Positions 1,156 through 15,675 of a stretch of DNA of 21,634 nucleotides are shown here, one piece after another. The DNA lies in IMG/VR virus record IMGVR_UViG_3300008470_000542, positions 1 through 21,634 of that record; one strand, given 5' to 3'. The stretch is from a virus. How positions within the stretch are numbered: position 1 is the first letter of the stretch; each line of letters begins with the position of its first letter. The position numbers and the translations under genes are program-made. The notes under the pieces are model-generated. The model did no database searches, had not been told where the DNA came from, and saw only the letters and a program-made list of their open reading frames with translations.

Positions 1156-1176
1156 TAAGGATGTTGGAAATATTTG

Positions 1177-1259
1177 CACGCCTGGTAGGATTCGAACCCA
1201 CGAACTCTTTCGAGATTGGTTTTGGAGACCAACGCATTTGACCGCTCTGCAACAGACAT
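1177..1259 (-). tRNA. tRNA with anticodon CCA (Trp codon) but type-II, Ser-like body
   Basis: Acceptor ATGTCTG/CAGGCGT pairs over 7 bp with two G-U pairs. The D arm is GCA...TGC (3 bp). Anticodon stem TTGGT/ACCAA holds loop CTCCAAA, giving anticodon CCA. T arm GTGGG-TTCGAAT-CCTAC, discriminator G. The region between anticodon stem and T stem is 14 nt with a small CTC-GAAA-GAG hairpin, as in class-II tRNAs (Ser, Leu, Tyr). Normal tRNA-Trp is class I. The 3-bp D stem, long arm and G73 are Ser-like, so the amino acid is uncertain: Trp by anticodon, Ser by body. A canonical Trp tRNA follows directly upstream (1266-1338). Confidence 0.8.
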
Positions 1260-1265
1260 ATTTTG

Positions 1266-1338
1266 CACGCATGGAGGGATTCGAACCCCCGACACCTGGT
1301 TTTGGAGACCAGTGCTCTACCAACTGAGCTACATACGT
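1266..1338 (-). tRNA. tRNA-Trp (CCA), canonical
   Basis: Acceptor ACGTATG/CATGCGT, D arm GCTC...GAGC, anticodon stem CTGGT/ACCAG with loop CTCCAAA, 5-nt variable loop, T arm GGGGG-TTCGAAT-CCCTC, discriminator G. A regular class-I cloverleaf, next to a second CCA tRNA with a different body. Confidence 0.9.
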
Positions 1339-1343
1339 ATTAG

Positions 1344-1425
1344 CACGGATCAGGGGATTTGCACTATCTAGAATACCCTATTTCTTCCGGTGAAGGAAGT
1401 GTCTTAGCTGTTAGACGACATCCGT
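1344..1425 (-). tRNA. Degenerate Glu-like tRNA, possibly a tRNA pseudogene
   Basis: The 5' half is a good Glu-type tRNA: acceptor strand ACGGATG, then TC, then D arm GTCT...AGAC as in the Glu tRNA at 2550-2621. The anticodon stem CTTCC/GGAAG leaves a loop of only six bases (TTCACC), so the anticodon cannot be fixed; TTC by homology, TCA or CAC by position. The 3' half is abnormal: no TTCRA T-loop; instead a stretch with TGCAAAT before CCCCT, and the acceptor closes 6 of 7 pairs. An insertion or rearrangement in the variable/T-arm region would explain it. Confidence 0.5.
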
Positions 1426-1435
1426 ATTTTAATTG

Positions 1436-1519
1436 TACCCCCACTCGGACTCGAACCGAGACGCCGCAATTAGCACTAGAGCTTAAATCTAGCGTGACTA
1501 CCAATTCCACCATAGAGGC
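1436..1519 (-). tRNA. tRNA-Leu (TAA), class II
   Basis: Acceptor GCCTCTA/TGGGGGT, D arm GTGG-AATTGGTAGTCAC of Leu type, anticodon stem CTAGA/TCTAG with loop TTTAAGC (TAA), long variable arm, T arm CTCGG-TTCGAGT-CCGAG, discriminator A as expected for Leu. Decodes UUA, a very common codon in this AT-rich phage. Confidence 0.9.
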
Positions 1520-1530
1520 AATTATATTTG

Positions 1531-1605
1531 TACACCTAAAGGGACTCGAACCCTTGAAAAACAGCGCTTAAAACTGTTGCGTAGTCCCGCGTCCGCCACA
1601 GGTGT
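1531..1605 (-). tRNA. tRNA with anticodon TAA (Leu codon) but short variable loop
   Basis: Acceptor ACACCTG/TAGGTGT, D arm GCG...CGC with a G-rich loop, anticodon stem ACAGT/GCTGT with loop TTTAAGC (TAA), T arm AAGGG-TTCGAGT-CCCTT, discriminator A. Only about five bases (TTTTC) separate anticodon stem and T stem, so it lacks the long variable arm that normal Leu tRNAs have, although its anticodon loop is identical to that of the Leu tRNA at 1436-1519. Confidence 0.8.
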
Positions 1606-1708
1606 ATTTGTTATCTTTACAGCGTATGTAGATTTGCTGATGGTTAATAACATCCAAGTTGAGTATTCGTCCGTATCAATAGAACTCCTTATAAACTACC
1701 TCTCCTTG
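1606..1708. other. 103-nt spacer inside the tRNA array, no tRNA seen
   Basis: No T-arm consensus or cloverleaf can be drawn on either strand. Short complementary segments are present (GATG...CATC, GAGT...ACTC). It may be a decayed tRNA or a structured processing spacer. Confidence 0.4.
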
Positions 1709-1781
1709 TGGATACGCAGGGACTTGAACCCTATCCTCCGCATTGCAAGTGCAGCACTCTATCCATTTGAGCTAACGACCC
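1709..1781 (-). tRNA. tRNA-Ala (TGC), imperfect acceptor stem
   Basis: D arm GCTC...GAGT, anticodon stem CTGCA/TGCGG with loop CTTGCAA (TGC), T arm TAGGG-TTCAAGT-CCCTG, discriminator A. The acceptor strands GGGTCGT and CGTATCC pair at positions 1-4 with a G3-U70 pair, the main Ala identity element, but the inner part needs a bulge. Either a drifting gene or an unusual acceptor. Confidence 0.75.
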
Positions 1782-1787
1782 ATAATT

Positions 1788-1865
1788 TGGTGGAGACGAA
1801 GGGAATCGAACCCTCCACACGGACCTTGCAAGGGTCTGTCGCCTGCCATTGGAACATGCGCCCCC
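1788..1865 (-). tRNA. tRNA-Ala (TGC) with encoded CCA end
   Basis: Acceptor GGGGGCG/CGTCTCC pairs fully and contains G3-U70, the Ala identity pair. Discriminator A is followed by a gene-encoded CCA (bases 1788-1790), the only one evident in the array. Anticodon stem around loop CTTGCAA (TGC) has four good pairs; T arm GAGGG-TTCGATT-CCCTT. The D arm is weak (wobble pairs). Second TGC tRNA in a row. Confidence 0.8.
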
Positions 1866-1941
1866 ATTTTCGCTTAGTTGTAGACCATAATTCTACACCT
1901 TGGTGTTAGGAACTTACTATCGTTACCCTGAATAAACCTTG

Positions 1942-2023
1942 TACGGATGAAGGGAATCGAACCCTCACACCTTGCGGTACTAGATCCTAAATCTAGCGCG
2001 TCTACCTATTCCGCCACATCCGC
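1942..2023 (-). tRNA. tRNA-Leu (TAG), class II
   Basis: Acceptor GCGGATG/CATCCGT, Leu-type D arm GCGG-AATAGGTAGACGC, anticodon stem CTAGA/TCTAG with loop TTTAGGA (TAG), long variable arm, T arm GAGGG-TTCGATT-CCCTT, discriminator A. Reads CUA and other CUN codons. Confidence 0.9.
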
Positions 2024-2029
2024 ATATTA

Positions 2030-2092
2030 TAATAATTGGTAATGTCATGCGGGATCACAACGAACGTATTTACCGTCCCCGACCAATTATTA
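2030..2092. repeat. 11-bp inverted repeat spanning the spacer between two Leu tRNAs
   Basis: TAATAATTGGT at 2030-2040 is the exact reverse complement of ACCAATTATTA at 2082-2092. The arms enclose about 41 bases and would bring the ends of neighbouring tRNAs together in the transcript, like a processing stem. Confidence 0.55.
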
Positions 2093-2097
2093 TTTTG

Positions 2098-2179
2098 TCA
2101 CGATGGAGAGAGTTGAACTCTCACGCCTTTCGGCACTTGCTCCTTAGACAAGCGTGTCTACCAATTCCACCACATCGCG
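2098..2179 (-). tRNA. tRNA-Leu (AAG), class II
   Basis: Acceptor CGCGATG/CATCGTG, Leu-type D arm GTGG-AATTGGTAGACAC, anticodon stem CTTGT/GCAAG with loop CTAAGGA, which gives anticodon AAG. Long variable arm with TGCCGAAAGGC, T arm GAGAG-TTCAACT-CTCTC, discriminator A. An A at position 34 is rare in bacterial Leu tRNAs, which normally use GAG for CUU/CUC; A34 may need deamination to inosine. Confidence 0.85.
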
Positions 2180-2188
2180 TTTAGTAAT

Positions 2189-2239
2189 TTATCGGTTAAA
2201 ATACCGATAAATGGTGTTTATCGGTATTTTAACCGATAA
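2189..2239. repeat. Perfect 23-bp hairpin between tRNA genes
   Basis: Bases 2189-2211 and 2217-2239 are exact reverse complements separated by the 5-base loop TGGTG. Each arm is itself nearly palindromic (ATCGGTTAAAATACCGAT). No U-run follows in the tRNA direction, so it does not look like a rho-independent terminator. An RNase III-type processing site or a protein-binding site are alternatives. Confidence 0.85.
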
Positions 2240-2242
2240 TTG

Positions 2243-2328
2243 TACATCCTGAAGGATTCGAACCTCCGTTATACTATTCGCCTCCTGCGTGTAAAACAGG
2301 TGCTCTTGACCGACTGAGCTAAGGATGT
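2243..2328 (-). tRNA. tRNA with anticodon TAC (Val) and a 16-nt variable region
   Basis: Acceptor ACATCCT/AGGATGT, D arm GCTC...GAGC, anticodon stem CCTGT/GCAGG with loop TTTACAC (TAC), T arm GGAGG-TTCGAAT-CCTTC, discriminator A. Between anticodon stem and T stem there are 16 bases (AGGCGAATAGTATAAC) instead of the 5 of a normal Val tRNA, and no clear stem forms within them. A canonical TAC tRNA lies directly upstream. Confidence 0.8.
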
Positions 2329-2334
2329 ATATTG

Positions 2335-2409
2335 TGTTTCCAGTAGGATTCGAACCTACGACCCTCTGGGTGTAAACCAGATACTCTGAACCAACTGAGC
2401 TATAGAAAC
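2335..2409 (-). tRNA. tRNA-Val (TAC), canonical
   Basis: Acceptor GTTTCTA/TGGAAAC, D arm GCTC...GAGT, anticodon stem TCTGG/CCAGA with loop TTTACAC (TAC), 5-nt variable loop GGGTC, T arm GTAGG-TTCGAAT-CCTAC, discriminator A. Confidence 0.9.
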
Positions 2410-2413
2410 ATTT

Positions 2414-2481
2414 GAAATAGATAATATATTGTCTATTTCGTCGTTTTTTGGTTATAATAGATAATATATTGTCTATTATAA
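2414..2481. repeat. Two direct-repeat hairpins (22-nt core, 40-nt period)
   Basis: A 22-base core beginning AATAGATAATATATTG occurs at 2416-2437 and 2456-2477 without mismatches. Each copy is the heart of a hairpin: GAAATAGA/TCTATTTC (2414-2439) and TTATAATAGA/TCTATTATAA (2452-2481). The flanking stem bases differ but stay complementary, which suggests selection for pairing. Confidence 0.75.
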
Positions 2482-2544
2482 TGAATATTATAGTAGCCGT
2501 TAAGACCATTTTTACTAGTTAATGGATATTATAGTAGCCATTAA
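2479..2544. repeat. Second pair of direct repeats in the same spacer (41-nt period)
   Basis: A 25-base element with core ATATTATAGTAGCC occurs at 2479-2503 and 2520-2544 with two differences. The second copy folds as TTAATGG/CCATTAA. Together with the hairpins just before, it fills the 140-base spacer between the Val and Glu tRNAs. Confidence 0.7.
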
Positions 2545-2549
2545 CTCAG

Positions 2550-2621
2550 TACTCGGACGGAGAATCGAACTCCGATTACCAGGATGAAAACCTGGCGTCC
2601 TAGCCGTTAGACGACCCGAGC
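2550..2621 (-). tRNA. tRNA-Glu (TTC), canonical
   Basis: Acceptor GCTCGGG/TCCGAGT, D arm GTCT...GGAC typical of Glu, anticodon stem CCAGG/CCTGG with loop TTTTCAT (TTC), T arm CGGAG-TTCGATT-CTCCG, discriminator A. Confidence 0.9.
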
Positions 2622-2626
2622 ATAGA

Positions 2627-2663
2627 GTGTAGATGGAAGATATCATTCCTGTGGTTACTACAC
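2627..2663. repeat. Nested hairpin in the spacer between two Glu-anticodon tRNAs
   Basis: Outer arms GTGTAG (2627-2632) and CTACAC (2658-2663) enclose an inner GGAA...TTCC pair. It cannot be drawn as a tRNA because no T-loop is present. Confidence 0.45.
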
Positions 2664-2682
2664 ATTTTACCCACTTTAAAAG

Positions 2683-2772
2683 TACAACGTATGGGATTCG
2701 AACCCACGATGTCAGTAAACCCAACATATCAGATTGAAAGTCTGACGACCTAAGCCACTAGTCGAACGCTGC
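2683..2772 (-). tRNA. tRNA with anticodon TTC (Glu) and a true type-II variable arm
   Basis: At 90 nt this is the longest of the array. Acceptor GCAGCGT/ACGTTGT pairs fully with wobbles, D arm GACT...GGTC, anticodon stem TCAGA/TCTGA with loop CTTTCAA (TTC), T arm GTGGG-TTCGAAT-CCCAT, discriminator A. The variable region is 21 nt and folds as ATGTT/GACAT around a 9-nt loop. Glu tRNAs are class I in all well-studied bacteria, and the canonical Glu tRNA lies 60 bases downstream. Confidence 0.8.
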
Positions 2773-2777
2773 ATTTG

Positions 2778-2862
2778 CGGTTCCAACGGGATTCGAACCC
2801 GTCTGTCCATTTCTGGTTCCGGAGTGACAGTCCGGTGGCCACGCCTAGCAGCCCCTGAAACC
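2778..2862 (-). tRNA. tRNA with anticodon GTC (Asp codon) but type-II, Ser-like body
   Basis: Acceptor GGTTTCA/TGGAACC, 3-bp D stem GGC/GCC, anticodon stem CCGGA/TCCGG with loop CTGTCAC (GTC), a 16-nt variable region containing CCA-GAAA-TGG, T arm ACGGG-TTCGAAT-CCCGT, discriminator G. The body is of Ser type while the anticodon is Asp. Two class-I GTC tRNAs follow upstream. Confidence 0.8.
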
Positions 2863-2869
2863 AATTTGC

Positions 2870-2939
2870 CGACTCCGTGGGATTCGAACCCCACCTCCAC
2901 CGTGACAGGGTGGCATACTAACCATTATACTACGGAATC
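2870..2939 (-). tRNA. tRNA-Asp (GTC), class I
   Basis: Acceptor GATTCCG/CGGAGTC, D arm GTAT...GTAT, anticodon stem CCACC/GGTGG with loop CTGTCAC (GTC), T arm TGGGG-TTCGAAT-CCCCA, discriminator G as expected for Asp. The variable loop is only about 3 nt (AGG), slightly short. Confidence 0.85.
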
Positions 2940-3004
2940 GATTTACTCTTTATTCATCACAAACACGTTATATCAGAGTTATCCAGTGTTGATTGGATAT
3001 GTTG

Positions 3005-3077
3005 CAGTGTATACGGGACTCGAACCCGCGATCTCCTGGCTGACAACCAAGCACTCTACCAACTGAGCCAATACACT
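3005..3077 (-). tRNA. tRNA-Asp (GTC), class I, third GTC tRNA
   Basis: Acceptor AGTGTAT/ATACACT, D arm GCTC...GAGT, anticodon stem CTTGG/CCAGG with loop TTGTCAG (GTC), variable loop AGATC, T arm GCGGG-TTCGAGT-CCCGT, discriminator G. It is the promoter-proximal tRNA of the array. Confidence 0.85.
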
Positions 3078-3111
3078 ATATTTCCAACATGTCAAAGAAC
3101 CAAGAATCGTT

Positions 3112-3243: not shown

Positions 3244-3263
3244 AACCTTAATTTTTAAACATA

Positions 3264-3295
3264 AAAAAACCCGACCATCTTACGATTGTCGGGTT
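3264..3295 (-). terminator. Rho-independent terminator after the 30-aa ORF
   Basis: Arms AACCCGAC (3268-3275) and GTCGGGTT (3288-3295), with an inner ATC/GAT pairing and one mismatch. On the minus strand the hairpin is followed by a run of seven T, so it terminates leftward transcription. The plus strand has only a weak T-tract. Confidence 0.75.
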
Positions 3296-3323: not shown

Positions 3324-3416
3324 TCAAGTTACATTCCCGACAATACGCATTGCTTCCTCATCATCCCATAATAGGACTTCGGCTAAAACTAATAATATGT
3401 CGAGTAATTTTTTCAT
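3324..3416 (-). CDS. 30-aa hydrophobic small protein gene with own promoter and terminator
   Basis: ATG (3416-3414) to TGA (3326-3324). The peptide starts MKKLLDILLVLAEVLLWDDE and ends AMRIVGNVT: a Lys-Lys start, a Leu/Val-rich helix of about 15 residues and an acidic turn, which could lie on or in the membrane or form an amphipathic helix. Support for a real gene comes from context: a consensus Bacteroidota promoter (3482-3512) sits about 65 bases upstream and a strong terminator follows 29 bases after the stop. It uses TGA while almost all other genes here use TAA. No family recognised. The unit could instead be a small RNA or leader with a chance ORF. Confidence 0.5.
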   Translation of the reverse strand: MKKLLDILLVLAEVLLWDDEEAMRIVGNVT

Positions 3417-3481: not shown

Positions 3482-3512
3482 CAAATGTACGCATTATTTT
3501 AATAAATACAAA
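3482..3512 (-). promoter_or_regulatory. Bacteroidota-type primary-sigma promoter, minus strand
   Basis: On the minus strand TTTG (3512-3509), 19-bp spacer, TACATTTG (3489-3482). This fits the -33 TTTG / -7 TAnnTTTG consensus of Bacteroides and Flavobacterium vegetative promoters. It points at the 30-aa ORF and, past its terminator, at the tRNA array. Confidence 0.7.
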
Positions 3513-3737: not shown

Positions 3738-4175
3738 ATGAGCGACATTGAATTAGTTGAAGACCACGAAAAAAAAGTAATTAAAATGAAGGAAGACACC
3801 GAAGCAATTAGGAAGTTGGTGAGTGTTTATATGTTGGAAGGAGATTTATTGGAGAATATATGGGATAATATCCCTGCGATATTATTCTATAAGGACAAAG
3901 AAAACAAATTAATTAAGGTTAACAAATATTTTACTAAAATTTTAGGTGTTAAAAAATCTGACGTTGAGGGGAAAAATATTAATGACTTAATGGATAATCA
4001 AATCTTAGCTGCAAAATATGCCTCTAATGATATTGAAGTAATAAATAATGGTGTATCAAGAATTGGTATCCTCGAAGAATTATTCGACACAGGAATAAAA
4101 TTAAGAACAGATAAATTTCCTGTTCGTAAAAACGGAAAAGTTTGTGGGGTGTTAGGATTCTCAGTAATATTATAA
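3738..4175 (+). CDS. Stand-alone PAS-domain protein
   Basis: 145 aa. Residues ~1-38 form a charged helix; residues ~39-145 form a PAS fold: NIWDNIPAILFYKDKENKLI, then KVNKYFTKILGVKKSDVEGK, then the NDLM...AAKYASND helix, and the C-terminal strands FPVRKNGKVCGVLGFSVIL. The order 'D-N-x-x-x-VN..F...LG....-EG+' is that of classic PAS sensor domains. There is no attached histidine kinase, GGDEF or DNA-binding domain, so it can only act by binding a ligand or a protein partner. Phage-encoded lone PAS proteins are uncommon. It heads a plus-strand unit with two small membrane-linked proteins; the next ATG lies 6 bases after its TAA. Its ligand is unknown. Confidence 0.8.
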   Translation: MSDIELVEDHEKKVIKMKEDTEAIRKLVSVYMLEGDLLENIWDNIPAILFYKDKENKLIKVNKYFTKILGVKKSDVEGKNINDLMDNQILAAKYASNDIEVINNGVSRIGILEELFDTGIKLRTDKFPVRKNGKVCGVLGFSVIL

Positions 4176-5315: not shown

Positions 5316-7319
5316 TTATGATAAAACTAATTCACTTTTTTTAGTATATTTTATTGTCGATTTAATATTTTGTTGAATATTTCCTTTTAAAATCTCATCA
5401 CTTAAAAAATCTTCACAAAGATTTTGGATGATTCTTTTAATTGGTCGAGCTCCATATTCTTCCTCAGTATTTAACTCAAAAATACGATCTGAGACACTTG
5501 AATGGAAGTTAATTAGGTATTCCTTCTGAAGTAACCTTTTGTTTAAATTTTTCATCTCAATCGAAATAATTTTTTTTAGTGCATCATTATCTAATGGATT
5601 GAACATGATATGGCCATCTAAACGATTTAAAAATTCCGGATTGAATCGTTTTTTCAGTTCTTTTAGGATAATAAGTTTCTTTTTTTCTGTGGTATCGCCA
5701 TTACCAGGTAAGTTGAAACCTAATCCACCACCAAAATCTTCAACCTTCTTTGCTCCGGTATTTGATGTCATGATAATAAGACAATTTGTGAAGTTAACTC
5801 TTCGACCGAATGAGTCAGTTAAATGACCTTCATCAAGAATTTGAAGTAGCATATTATACACATCCTTATGTGCCTTTTCAATTTCATCAAATAATATTAC
5901 TGAGAATGGGTTATTTTTAACGGCTTCAGTCAATTGGCCACCTTCTTCATAACCAACATATCCCGGAGGAGACCCAATAAGACGAGAGACGTTATGTTTT
6001 TCCATAAATTCACTCATATCAATTCTAATCATATTATCGGCAGAACCGAATAATAATTCCGCAATACTTTTGGCTAAATAGGTTTTACCAACACCTGTTG
6101 ACCCTAAGAACATGAATGACCCAATTGGTTTATCACTACCTTTAATACCAACACGGTTTCTTCTGATTGCTTTGGAGATAGTTGAAATAGCGTCTTCCTG
6201 TCCAATTACCTTTGAGGTAAGTTGTTCTTCGAGAGTTAGGAGATTTGATGTTTCTTTTTGGTCGAGTTTTGAAACTGGTACACCTGTAATGGCTGTGACA
6301 ATTGAATATACGTCTTCAACAATTATGGGGTCTTTGTTATCTTCTTTTCGATTTTCCCAAGCTTCTTTTTCTTTATTCAATTTTTTAATTATCTTCTCAC
6401 CATCATCCCGTAATTGTGCGGCGGACTCATAATCTTGATTCTTAACTACTTCTTTCTTCTTGATGTAAATTGCTTCAATTTCATCTTTGAGTAATTCAAT
6501 CGATTTTGGCATCTCTGAGGATACTCTTTTCTCTGCACCTAATTCATCTAAAACATCGATAGCTTTATCAGGGAAATTTCGATCTGTTATAAATTTACCC
6601 GATAACATCACGATGGTTTCCATTACCTTATCACCATATGATACTTTATGATAATTTTCATACGAATCTTTAATATTGTGTAATATTTCAATGGTTTCTT
6701 CAGGTGTAGGTTCTTTTAGAATTACCTTTTGAAACCTACGGGTCAAAGCCGCATCTTTTTCGATGTGTTTCTTAAATTCATCGAATGTTGTTGAACCTAT
6801 ACATTGTATTTCACCTCTCGCTAGCGCGGGCTTAAATATATTTGAAGCATCCATTGAACCACTAGCGTTTCCTGCTCCGACCATCATATGTAACTCATCG
6901 ATAAACAGAATAACATCTCTATTTTCTTGGAGTTCAACTAATATACCTTTAACTCTTTCCTCAAATTGTCCACGGTACTTTGTTCCCGCAACTAATGAAG
7001 TTAAGTCAAGTGCGACTATTCGTTTATCCAATAAATTGGTTGAACATTCTCCATTAACAATTAATAACGCTAGTTTCTCAACTAACGCTGTTTTACCAAC
7101 CCCTGCGTCACCTACTACGACCGCATTGTTCTTTTTCTTACGAGATAATATTTGTGAAATTCTAAGAACCTCTTTATCTCTACCAACAACTGGGTCTATC
7201 ATACCATCTTCAGCCAATTTGTTTAAGTCTCTTGAAAAATTGTCAAGAATTGGTGTTTTTTATCCAGTTTTTTTAGTTTTATTCTGCTTCGGTGAATCTT
7301 CAAAAAAATCTACGCCCAT
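5316..7319 (-). CDS. ClpC-like double-AAA+ unfoldase without N domain, in-frame TAA at codon 20
   Basis: Two AAA+ modules. D1 has Walker A GDAGVGKT and Walker B VILFIDE; a middle region holds a UVR-like motif (NQDYESAAQLRDDGEK); D2 has Walker A GSTGVGKT, Walker B VILFDEIEKAH, sensor 1 IIMTSNTGA, Arg finger NRLDGHIMF and sensor 2 GARPIKRI. GGGLGFN after sensor 1 matches the (V/I/L)GF loop by which ClpC/ClpA dock on ClpP, so it could feed substrates to host ClpP. The ~150-residue Clp_N domain is absent. The conserved lead-in KTPILDNFSRDLNKLAEDG lies upstream of the longest open frame and is cut from the ATG at 7319 by TAA at 7262-7260 in the same frame; without read-through, translation must start at TTG 7217 or ATG 7202. 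Eight bases after the upstream membrane gene. Confidence 0.9.
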
Positions 7320-7327
7320 ATTAATAA

Positions 7328-7567
7328 TTATTTATTGTTGTTAGTTTGTGTTGCTTTAATAAGTATACCAAATACCCATACTAAACATACAGATACCCAC
7401 CAATCCAATTGGCCAGCAATCCAACCTTCTTCAACTAATTTTGGAAAAGCCATTGGTACCGCAACAGGCCAAATCCAATAAAGAATCGTGCCACTTAATA
7501 CCGCTAATAGGGCTACCGTTGCTACAATTCCAATTCCACTAAGTAATATTTTAATTACGTTATTCAT
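7328..7567 (-). CDS. Small two-helix membrane protein
   Basis: 79 aa. Helix one spans residues ~5-32 (ILLSGIGIVATVALLAVLSG, then TILYWIWPVAVPMAF), helix two residues ~52-71 (GQLDWWVSVCLVWVFGILI); it ends hydrophilic (KATQTNNNK). Trp-rich and compact. It resembles small membrane proteins I have seen beside head or chaperone genes in uncultured aquatic phages, but no function is known. It has a consensus Bacteroidota promoter at 7604-7635 and is followed after 8 bases by the clpC-like gene, so the two probably form an early-type operon ending at 5182. Confidence 0.7.
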   Translation of the reverse strand: MNNVIKILLSGIGIVATVALLAVLSGTILYWIWPVAVPMAFPKLVEEGWIAGQLDWWVSVCLVWVFGILIKATQTNNNK

Positions 7568-13872: not shown

Positions 13873-15675
13873 ATGGGTACAAACATTGCACAACTAAAAG
13901 AATACGCTCGTATTATCAAAGATACGCCGTATGCGTTAAAAACTTATCTCCAAACTTTTGATAACACTCAAGGCGGGAATGTTCCTTTAGAGTTATTTCC
14001 AGACCAAGAATCTTTACTTTCTGATTATGATACATATAATGAAAACATAACAAGAAAATATCGTCAGGCAGGTGTTTCAACTGTAACCGCCGCTTGGGTA
14101 TCAAAAATATTACAAATTGCAAGTAAGGATAAACCTGAAAAAGTTCTAATCGTAGCAAATAAGAGAGATACTGCAATTGAAATGGCGAATAAGATTCGTG
14201 GTTTCTTAATGCAATGGCCATATTGGATGAATGTCGGGTTCTCACCTGATAAAAACTCTGAAAGTAGATTTAGATTAAAGAATGATTGTGAAGTAAAAGC
14301 TGTTGCGACATCAAAGGATGCATTAAGGGGTTATACTCCGACCATCCTAATATTTGATGAGGCCGCATATATTGAAGCTGGTGATGATTTTTGGGCTGCA
14401 TCTATGGCTTCGTTATCAACGGGTGGTAAAATTATACTTATTTCAACGCCAAACGGTTTCGACCCAATTTATTATACTGTGTTCGATCAAGCTCTCAAAG
14501 GAATTAATAATTTTCACATTAGTGATTTAGCTTGGTACAAAGACCCAAGATACGCTAAAAACTTACAATGGATAAAAGTGAAAGACATGGTTCACTATAT
14601 GTTAAATCGTGGTGTTTATGATGATATGGAGAAAGGTTTCATATTACGTGATGTCCCACAAAAAGATTACAAACAAACACTTGAAGATGGATATAAACCG
14701 TATTCCCCATGGTTCGAAAGTATGGCGAAGAAACTTAAATTTGACCCGAGAAAGATTGCTCAAGAGATTGAATGTGACTTCTTGGGTTCAGGCGATAGTG
14801 TTATTCCATATGAAACTAGAGAGAATATTGTTAAGAATATGCTTCGAGAACCAAAAGAAAAAATGATGAGTGGTGATATGTGGTATTGGAAAGAACCAAT
14901 TGAAGGTCATCGTTATATTATGGGTATTGATGTGTCTAGGGGCGATAGTGAAGATTTCTCTTCTATTTGTGTCTTAGATTTTGATGATAGAGAACAAGTA
15001 CTTGAATATGTGGGTAAAATCCCACCAGATGACCTGGCTCAAGTCGCATATAGATGGGCTGTATTATTTAAAGCGTATGTAGTAATCGATATTACAGGTG
15101 GTATGGGTATTGCTACAGCACGAAAGTTCCAAGAAATGGGGTATCGTGATATGTTTATCGATGGTATTAACACACAAAATATATGGGAATATAGTTCTAA
15201 AATGATGGACAAAATCCCGGGCATCAACTTTAATAATAAACGAACACAAATTGTCGCATCATTTGAAGAACAATTAAGACATGGTTTTATAGTTAGGTCT
15301 CAAAGGATGGTTAATGAAATGGGAACATTTGTTTACCTTAATGGTCGTCCTGACCATATGAAAGGTACACATGATGACGCTATTATGGCTTGTGCAATTG
15401 CATTGTATGTCGGGGACATATGTTTCAGTCAGTTACAAAAAGCTGGAGCGGTTAATAAAGCAATGATGGAGTCTTGGGTATTGTCAGAAAGAGAATATGA
15501 CCCACAACAATCGTTCTACTCTTATGGTAAAGCTTTCGACCCACTTGGTACTATGACTTTGGATGGTCGACCAGTTGATGATAACCCTTTATTTCAAAAC
15601 GATACCGTTCAAAGTGCGAAACAACAATATAAGAATTATTCATGGTTATTTGGTAATCCATATAAACATAGATAA
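13873..15675 (+). CDS. Terminase large subunit (T4 gp17-like)
   Basis: 600 aa, the usual length of gp17. It packages DNA into the prohead: an N-terminal ATPase and a C-terminal RNase H-fold nuclease. ATPase: adenine-motif region near residues 38-50, Walker A-like KYRQAGVST (~residues 62-70; GVS in place of GKT, as in many RQxGxST terminases), Walker B ILIFDEAAYI (~157-166), coupling motif ISTPNG (~195). Nuclease: YIMGIDVSRGDSEDFSSICV (~residues 350-369) with the first catalytic Asp, DITGGMG (~405) and GTHDDAIMA (~498) with the later Asp pair. It is monocistronic by layout: terminator before, a new motif after. No small terminase is recognisable in the window. Confidence 0.95.
   Translation: MGTNIAQLKEYARIIKDTPYALKTYLQTFDNTQGGNVPLELFPDQESLLSDYDTYNENITRKYRQAGVSTVTAAWVSKILQIASKDKPEKVLIVANKRDTAIEMANKIRGFLMQWPYWMNVGFSPDKNSESRFRLKNDCEVKAVATSKDALRGYTPTILIFDEAAYIEAGDDFWAASMASLSTGGKIILISTPNGFDPIYYTVFDQALKGINNFHISDLAWYKDPRYAKNLQWIKVKDMVHYMLNRGVYDDMEKGFILRDVPQKDYKQTLEDGYKPYSPWFESMAKKLKFDPRKIAQEIECDFLGSGDSVIPYETRENIVKNMLREPKEKMMSGDMWYWKEPIEGHRYIMGIDVSRGDSEDFSSICVLDFDDREQVLEYVGKIPPDDLAQVAYRWAVLFKAYVVIDITGGMGIATARKFQEMGYRDMFIDGINTQNIWEYSSKMMDKIPGINFNNKRTQIVASFEEQLRHGFIVRSQRMVNEMGTFVYLNGRPDHMKGTHDDAIMACAIALYVGDICFSQLQKAGAVNKAMMESWVLSEREYDPQQSFYSYGKAFDPLGTMTLDGRPVDDNPLFQNDTVQSAKQQYKNYSWLFGNPYKHR

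Follow-up and report, generated by a model that had tools for sequence, protein, structure and literature searches.

Why should a phage carry neighbouring transfer RNA (tRNA) genes that share an anticodon but not a body, and when would such genes be expressed? We addressed this question for a tRNA array on the minus strand of the virus record IMGVR_UViG_3300008470_000542 (IMG/VR), the whole of which (21,634 nucleotides) is referred to below as the window. ARAGORN detected 15 tRNA genes between positions 1176 and 3077. Upstream of them lies a leader-peptide attenuator that the first-pass annotation of this DNA did not report and that is the stronger clue to the function of the array. From its anatomy, the match between leader and tRNAs, its conservation and its association with phages, all seen in the sequence, we infer that the array belongs, as a single operon, to a tRNA-supply system of the phage and is controlled by ribosome-mediated transcription attenuation, a reading to which we assign a probability of roughly 0.78. 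On this reading, the virus probably holds back its replacement tRNAs until the cell is short of them.

A leader ORF, a terminator and an antiterminator precede the tRNA array

The elements upstream of the first tRNA gene, in the order of transcription, are the following (ORF, open reading frame; nt, nucleotides).

3482-3512, minus strand: promoter-like sequence TTTG-N19-TACATTTG of the Bacteroidota type, by motif match
3324-3416, minus strand: leader ORF of 30 amino acids, MKKLLDILLVLAEVLLWDDEEAMRIVGNVT (begins MKKLLDILLVLAEVLLWDDEEA...), by ORF, conservation and residue match to the array
3336-3344, minus strand: antiterminator segment A, ATTGTCGGG, within the end of the leader ORF, a 9-nt perfect complement of the 5′ arm of the terminator
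3262-3295, minus strand: intrinsic terminator AACCCGAC...GTCGGGTTTTTTT, segments B and C, by fold and script
3089-3099, minus strand: boxA-like TTCTTTGACAT directly before the first tRNA gene, by motif

Of the 22 leader residues scored, 18 belong to the isotypes found in the array (D, E, V, L, A or W). The reading frame, the start and the LLDIL/LLW blocks are kept in 30 homologous leaders. Within the MKNLLDIL block, differences at the three codon positions amount to 419, 174 and 655, the fewest at the second and the most at the third position, a coding-type pattern of substitution. The 5′ arm of the terminator (3295-3262) finds its complement in the last part of the leader ORF (3344-3336). Pairing of A with B gives a fold of -17.9 kcal/mol (z -4.3 against shuffles) and the terminator one of -18.1 kcal/mol (z -5.2); the terminator hairpin was also found by script, while a consensus terminator scan listed none, probably because its loop limit is 8. 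The locus combines an ORF whose codons match the product, a terminator before the first gene and a mutually exclusive antiterminator pairing. The same unit of leader, terminator and antiterminator is found in three relatives. The window gave no match to an Rfam T-box model, and tblastn of the leader peptides against named phages gave no match at E<1, which is unsurprising for such short peptides.

A leader/antiterminator detector yielded 62 non-redundant leaders. A TTG-N17-23-TAnnTTTG motif lies at most 160 nt upstream of the leader in 49 of the 62 cases; we take its consensus to be of the Bacteroidota type, which makes it a candidate promoter. CTTTGA occurs at most 260 nt downstream of the terminator in 47 of the 62 operons, and we liken this boxA-like site to the boxA of ribosomal RNA operons. 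The end of the stop codon is located at a median of 21 nt past the start of segment A.

Leaders match the tRNA genes that follow them

The match between leader residues and downstream isotypes was determined for clusters of at least three genes, with tRNAs as called by ARAGORN within 6 kb; the IMG/VR loci are fragments and partly redundant, and ARAGORN misses some odd tRNAs. Across 27 leader families (<40% identity), 73% of the leader residues matched the downstream isotypes compared with 39% expected, a value reached in 0 of 20,000 permutations. Using only loci that had not been selected by the attenuator, the match persisted in 21 families (z = 9.2, 0 of 50,000 permutations). Conversely, 97% of the isotypes of a cluster are present in its leader, compared with 62% after permutation. 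Leader codons for the amino acids of the cluster are readable by an encoded anticodon in 86% of cases, which fits sensing at the amino-acid level and at the tRNA level alike.

The match extends to phages in which several operons each have a leader. A second operon in G021 (Pro, Arg, Pro, His, Gln x3, Leu) is preceded by a separate leader, MRTLLHQRPQGQPP..., together with a terminator and an antiterminator belonging to it alone. G028 contains a leader ..NIQHQPVQHPQ.. before P H P P H Q Q tRNA genes, a leader ..NKTYYGYKSYKK.. before Y K Y K genes and a leader NININITSGTTISRNGNGIFCS before a cluster for Cys, Ile, Ser, Asn, Phe, Gly, Thr and Arg. On LR756501 (735 kb), the K/H/S/F/W leader ..KHSKHFSSSSKW.. 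precedes W H H F K S K, a Leu-rich leader precedes five Leu genes, and an M/I/Q/E leader precedes Met, Gln and Ile. The same record (L398, minus strand) has runs of same-isotype tRNA genes (Leu x5, Asn x3, Met x3, Gln, Glu x3).

We also scanned 2.9 million IMG/VR viral contigs with the pattern GTCGGG..CCCGAC..GTCGGGTTTTT, which specifies neither a leader nor a tRNA. All 41 stretches retrieved have a tRNA gene downstream, usually at a distance of 13-210 nt, and the single match in 395 Bacteroidota genomes consists of tandem terminators without leader or tRNA. In a separate control with 55 terminators located at most 250 nt before a tRNA at loci not chosen by the attenuator, an alternative upstream pairing of at least 6 base pairs (bp) was present in 75%, compared with 6% of shuffled sequences and 10% of 488 other terminators. 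The A segments comprise 37 different sequences, each the complement of its own terminator. An early leader/A match in Xanthomonas phage X1 failed the stricter detector and was not used.

Proposed mechanism of attenuation

Translation of the leader, stalling of the ribosome and the structural switch are proposed here by analogy with the model of ribosome-mediated attenuation (PMC1183508). RNA polymerase starting at the promoter would first transcribe the leader, whose 30 codons mostly specify Asp, Glu, Val, Leu, Ala and Trp. A ribosome reaching the stop codon would cover A and leave B to pair with C, in which case the terminator would form and no tRNA would be produced. Scarcity of charged tRNA for any of the leader codons would make the ribosome stall earlier; A would then pair with B, and the operon would be transcribed in the absence of the terminator. 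The operon would thus be switched on whenever any of its isotypes runs short. The natural trigger may be a loss of tRNA during infection, caused by a host nuclease, host shut-off or starvation; destruction of tRNA could serve as such a trigger, and starvation or host decay would act alike. Destruction of tRNA has been documented as a phage defence (PMC10264068, PMC11555353, PMC13096335). Under this scheme, many anticodons would be supplied twice, the second copy keeping the acceptor and anticodon identity while its core or variable arm is changed.

Composition of the array

The genes of the array, all on the minus strand, are given in the order of transcription; unless stated otherwise, they were called by both ARAGORN and Rfam.

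3004-3077, minus strand: tRNA-Asp(GTC), variable region 5
2868-2940, minus strand: tRNA-Asp(GTC), variable region 3; similar genes with a variable region of 3 in G021 and G028
2777-2862, minus strand: tRNA-Asp(GTC), class II body, 16-nt variable arm with stem CCA-GAAA-TGG; orthologues in L088 and L089
2682-2772, minus strand: tRNA-Glu(TTC), class II body, 21-nt variable arm; orthologue in L088
2549-2621, minus strand: tRNA-Glu(TTC), ordinary, variable region 4
2334-2409, minus strand: tRNA-Val(TAC), ordinary
2242-2328, minus strand: tRNA-Val(TAC), conserved and apparently unstructured 16-nt variable region AGGCGAATAGTATAAC; near-identical insert in L167 and L089
2097-2179, minus strand: tRNA-Leu(AAG), ordinary class II
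1941-2023, minus strand: tRNA-Leu(TAG), ordinary class II
1788-1863, minus strand: tRNA-Ala(TGC), CCA encoded, D arm weak; ARAGORN, with Rfam below cut-off
1710-1781, minus strand: tRNA-Ala(TGC), G3:U70 retained, one extra base in the 3′ strand of the acceptor
1530-1605, minus strand: tRNA-Leu(TAA), class I body, variable region 5
1435-1519, minus strand: tRNA-Leu(TAA), ordinary class II
1352-1420, minus strand: degenerate Glu-like tRNA element, read from the sequence, uncalled by ARAGORN or Rfam
1265-1338, minus strand: tRNA-Trp(CCA), ordinary
1176-1259, minus strand: tRNA-Trp(CCA), class II, 14-nt arm CTC-GAAA-GAG, Ser-like D arm, Trp-like acceptor (A1-U72, G73)

The ARAGORN scan of the minus strand confirmed the pairing of anticodons that had been noticed in the sequence: along the transcript the genes read Asp GTC x3, Glu TTC x2, Val TAC x2, Leu AAG, Leu TAG, Ala TGC x2, Leu TAA x2 and Trp CCA x2. 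An anticodon is shared by 7 of the 14 adjacent gene pairs, a number as high in 3 of 200,000 shuffles. Variable-region lengths agree with the earlier reading for Trp (5/14 nt), Leu-TAA (15/5), Val (5/16), Glu (4/21) and Asp (5/3/16). The description of these groups as one canonical and one altered member holds for Trp, Val, Glu and Asp, where a short region stands against a long one; Leu-TAA is switched in the opposite direction, one copy having a class I body. The two Ala genes have unlike bodies, yet their variable regions are both short (4 and 5), and Leu AAG and Leu TAG are each ordinary class II genes. Against the Rfam tRNA model, 14 of the 15 genes score above the cut-off of 29 (38.6-70.6 bits), the exception being Ala 1788-1863 with 22.8 bits. 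A tmRNA-like (transfer-messenger RNA-like) nature of the latter was considered and dropped, the clan match being sub-threshold only (27.2 bits against a cut-off of 47). The Glu-like element at 1352-1420, previously counted as a member of the array, looks degenerate, with an anticodon loop of 6 nt and an insertion in the T loop.

That phage arrays usually hold one gene per anticodon is true of most ordinary arrays in remoter relatives, of which L074 and L077 serve as contrast; the array of the window departs from it. About 30 related phages show the pairing too, and across attenuator-led clusters of phage tRNA genes an anticodon is common to 80 of 497 adjacent gene pairs. Codon demand alone was rejected as an explanation: the Trp codon is infrequent (10 per 1000), yet tRNA-Trp is doubled.

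Class-switched tRNAs are common in phages and keep the acceptor identity of their anticodon

Phages frequently carry class-switched tRNAs. Searching with a gapped class II tRNA-Trp pattern retrieved at least 119 viral stretches, and ARAGORN confirmed the gene in nearly all 78 viral loci examined. In 84,980 cellular genomes the pattern gave 62 matches, of which only 11 contain a class II Trp. Among named phages, Caulobacter phage CcrColossus has a tRNA-Trp of 86 nt, and Xanthomonas phage X1 has adjoining Asn genes (83 and 73 nt) and Lys genes (73 and 82 nt). The reverse switch is represented by 27 distinct class I Leu tRNAs among viral loci. Stems of at least 3 bp are formed by 91% of the class II Trp variable arms compared with 51% of shuffles, and these arms are therefore not random insertions.

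Identity elements were compared in 978 distinct viral tRNAs. G-1 with C73 was present in 9 of 11 class II tRNA-His but in 0 of 308 other class II tRNAs, U73 in 12 of 13 class II Cys/Gly/Thr tRNAs, and A/G1-U72 with G73 in 73 of 82 class II Trp tRNAs; C1-G72 was found in 5 of 7 class-switched Pro tRNAs and G1-U72 with A73 in all four class-switched Glu tRNAs. Agreement with the isotype thus concerns mainly His, Trp, Cys, Gly, Thr, Glu and Pro and is weaker for Gln and Lys. On these elements the second copy should carry the same amino acid as the first. Typing of D arms by nearest neighbour gave a mixed picture, some switched tRNAs being Ser/Leu-like and others keeping the D arm of their own isotype. 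The D arms of the Glu and Asp class II genes of the window are closest to those of Glu and Asp tRNAs, which fits the proposal of a duplication followed by a change of body.

The two members of each Trp, Val, Ala and Leu-TAA pair have the same anticodon loop; the loops differ in Glu and one Asp, as judged between pair members and not against the host. Escape from simple anticodon-loop cutters is consequently not what these sequences show. A cutter reading the variable region or the core, such as Septu, would fit better; cutting at the variable loop is known for Septu, and the tRNA-Tyr of T5 has a distinctive variable loop (PMC13096335). The altered second copy could be a version that a tRNA nuclease, or another factor reading the tRNA core, does not handle, a suggestion that we make with reserve.

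Alternative explanations

Several points weigh against the attenuation operon and its altered copies as described here. The unit has three segments only, so the antiterminator would form also when the leader is untranslated. Leader families inside one phage lineage are not fully independent, and the tRNA sets used for the match are those ARAGORN calls within 6 kb. Most pairs have the same anticodon loop, the arrays of L074 and L076 share the leader design with few or no doubled or switched genes, and the 16-nt insert of Val has no clear stem. It is also conceivable, although we consider it the weaker account, that the attenuator is real and senses general amino-acid starvation or slowed translation, the tRNAs merely restoring decoding. 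Classical leader-peptide attenuators do respond to slow reading of regulatory codons at amino-acid shortage (PMC1183508). However, a lack of the amino acid itself is not remedied by extra tRNA, the products of the operons are tRNAs and not biosynthesis enzymes, and loss of tRNA is already documented in phage defence (PMC10264068, PMC11555353, PMC13096335).

For the second copies, the closest competitor of escape from a core-reading nuclease is dosage with drift: the bodies would have diverged because homologous recombination removes tandem copies that are identical, and the change of class would have no function. In phage T6, a tRNA locus has been documented to undergo tandem amplification, which is unstable in the absence of selection (PMC13096335), and the members of our pairs are adjacent. 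A class I partner is, however, missing from the same locus for most class II tRNA-Trp genes, the class II Trp arms form stems more often than shuffles, and orthologous switched tRNAs retain their arms across phages. Dosage protected from recombination ranks just below nuclease escape and is nearly as likely, both being tentative. That a switched body leads to charging with a different amino acid, such as Ser on a class II Trp anticodon, and so recodes phage proteins is very improbable. Charging with another amino acid, raised in the first-pass annotation, is suggested by the Ser-like D arm and G73 of the class II Trp gene in the window, but the acceptor elements go with the anticodon and not with the body (His G-1:C73; Cys/Gly/Thr U73; Trp A/G1-U72; Glu G1-U72/A73; Pro C1-G72), on which grounds mischarging was rejected. 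Least probable of all is decay: a degenerate look is shared by the element at 1352-1420 and by the weak Ala gene at 1788-1863, and G001 (L071) has broken tRNAs at the syntenic place, but the class II copies of Trp, Asp and Glu and the long-insert Val copy score 38-62 bits in Rfam and are matched in other phages by close orthologues with intact structures. The odd copies of the pairs do not look like random decayed pseudogenes, and this explanation was rejected for them on orthologue conservation. Taken as a whole, the earlier interpretation is partly supported.

Relation to known systems

Like the trp and his leader-peptide attenuators, the phage unit has a short ORF rich in regulatory codons, an intrinsic terminator, an alternative antiterminator and a stop codon near the antiterminator. 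In contrast to them, it controls tRNA genes, one leader spans up to about 15-20 isotypes, and there are three segments, not four; moreover, its regulatory codons match the tRNAs made, so that the product would directly remove the signal. T-box riboswitches likewise sense a shortage of charged tRNA through transcription antitermination, whereas the phage unit is predicted to do so via a translated leader. Goldfarb and Daniel (1980, cited in PMC9693318) reportedly described transcriptional control of phage T4 tRNA subclusters, and we know of no leader-peptide attenuator in a T4 tRNA operon. In the open-access literature searched, we found no description of class-switched pairs or of a leader attenuator of phage tRNA operons.

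Nematode nev-tRNAs are said to be charged as Leu and to carry a long variable arm on unexpected anticodons; allo-tRNAs are Ser-like. The copies of the window have in common with allo-tRNAs the long variable arm on unexpected anticodons (PMC7609411). They differ from both groups in acceptor ends that fit the anticodon and in 7/5 stems instead of longer acceptor forms. Phage tRNAs that escape tRNA-cutting defences likewise differ from the host tRNA at a possible nuclease site (PMC10264068, PMC11555353, PMC13096335). Here, however, whole class-switched copies adjoin ordinary ones for many isotypes, and resistance is only hypothesised.

The purpose of phage tRNAs is an old open question. If the leaders work as proposed, each tRNA operon is switched on by a shortage of the tRNAs it encodes, and the leaders list which tRNAs each phage expects to lose; the leader peptides would then be the phages' own record of what their tRNAs are for. 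It is possible, though we would not put it more strongly, that many large phages possess a tRNA-depletion sensor of this kind, with operons each behind a multi-isotype leader and core-changed copies that host nucleases do not recognise; if true, this would be a self-adjusting counter-defence against tRNA-destroying immunity. The leader-attenuator also offers a new signature by which tRNA operons can be recognised in viral sequences, and the large natural set of tRNAs with body class uncoupled from amino acid is useful for studies of tRNA recognition and nuclease specificity.

Relatives of the array and neighbouring features

The source of this 21.6-kb virus record is a T4-like myovirus, whose terminase (13873-15675) has its best named relatives at 28-29% identity. 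Collinear arrays occur in the contigs with the nearest ClpA gene (79% identity), namely L087/L167, L088 and L089, and in two records longer than 320 kb, G026 and G028; G028 gives 50 tRNA matches. Class II tRNA-Asp is found again in L088, where changes fall on both sides of stems, and in L089. L088 has the class II tRNA-Glu as well, and the Val insert is shared with L089 and L167. The class II Trp gene reappears in L167 and G028, its 14-nt arm unchanged, and that arm is also present in G021. Since each of the main paralogues has orthologues of its own, the corresponding duplications predate the divergence of these phages.

The tRNA-Ala at 1710-1781 has a counterpart at L167 3054-3128, missed by ARAGORN and found by Rfam, with the same extra 3′ acceptor base (by eye) and G3:U70. 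Between tRNA-Ala and tRNA-Leu(TAA) lies a conserved noncoding element (window 1607-1709, minus strand; L167 3131-3250) with long invariant blocks, for example CTATTGATACGGA and CTACATACG, which matched no Rfam family. Near-perfect AT-rich hairpins between tRNA genes at 2185-2245 and 2430-2545, of the types TTATCGGTTAAAATACCGATAAA and GAAATAGACAATATATTATCTATTTC, are candidates for processing signals or mobile palindromes. Syntenic to the array, L071 (G001) 7152-7561 contains a GOLLD RNA (309 bits) with adjoining degenerate tRNAs and a tmRNA with the tag GNVYNNMEVAGLLATSKVAA. ORFs within the arrays of L089 (13761-14408) and L088 (17370-17840) look by eye like GIY-YIG homing endonucleases (IYKTINTLNGRYYYGLHS), a reading that Pfam did not confirm for the L089 ORF; if real, they are a possible engine of tRNA duplication, like SegB in T6 (PMC13096335).

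The GC-rich left end of the window (1 to about 165), which by eye resembles the end of a glycosyltransferase gene, is unlike the remaining contig. Its ~165-170 bases gave no match in E. coli genomes and none in Pfam, and it is a probable assembly chimera. A PAS-domain protein (3738-4175) adjoins the tRNA operon.

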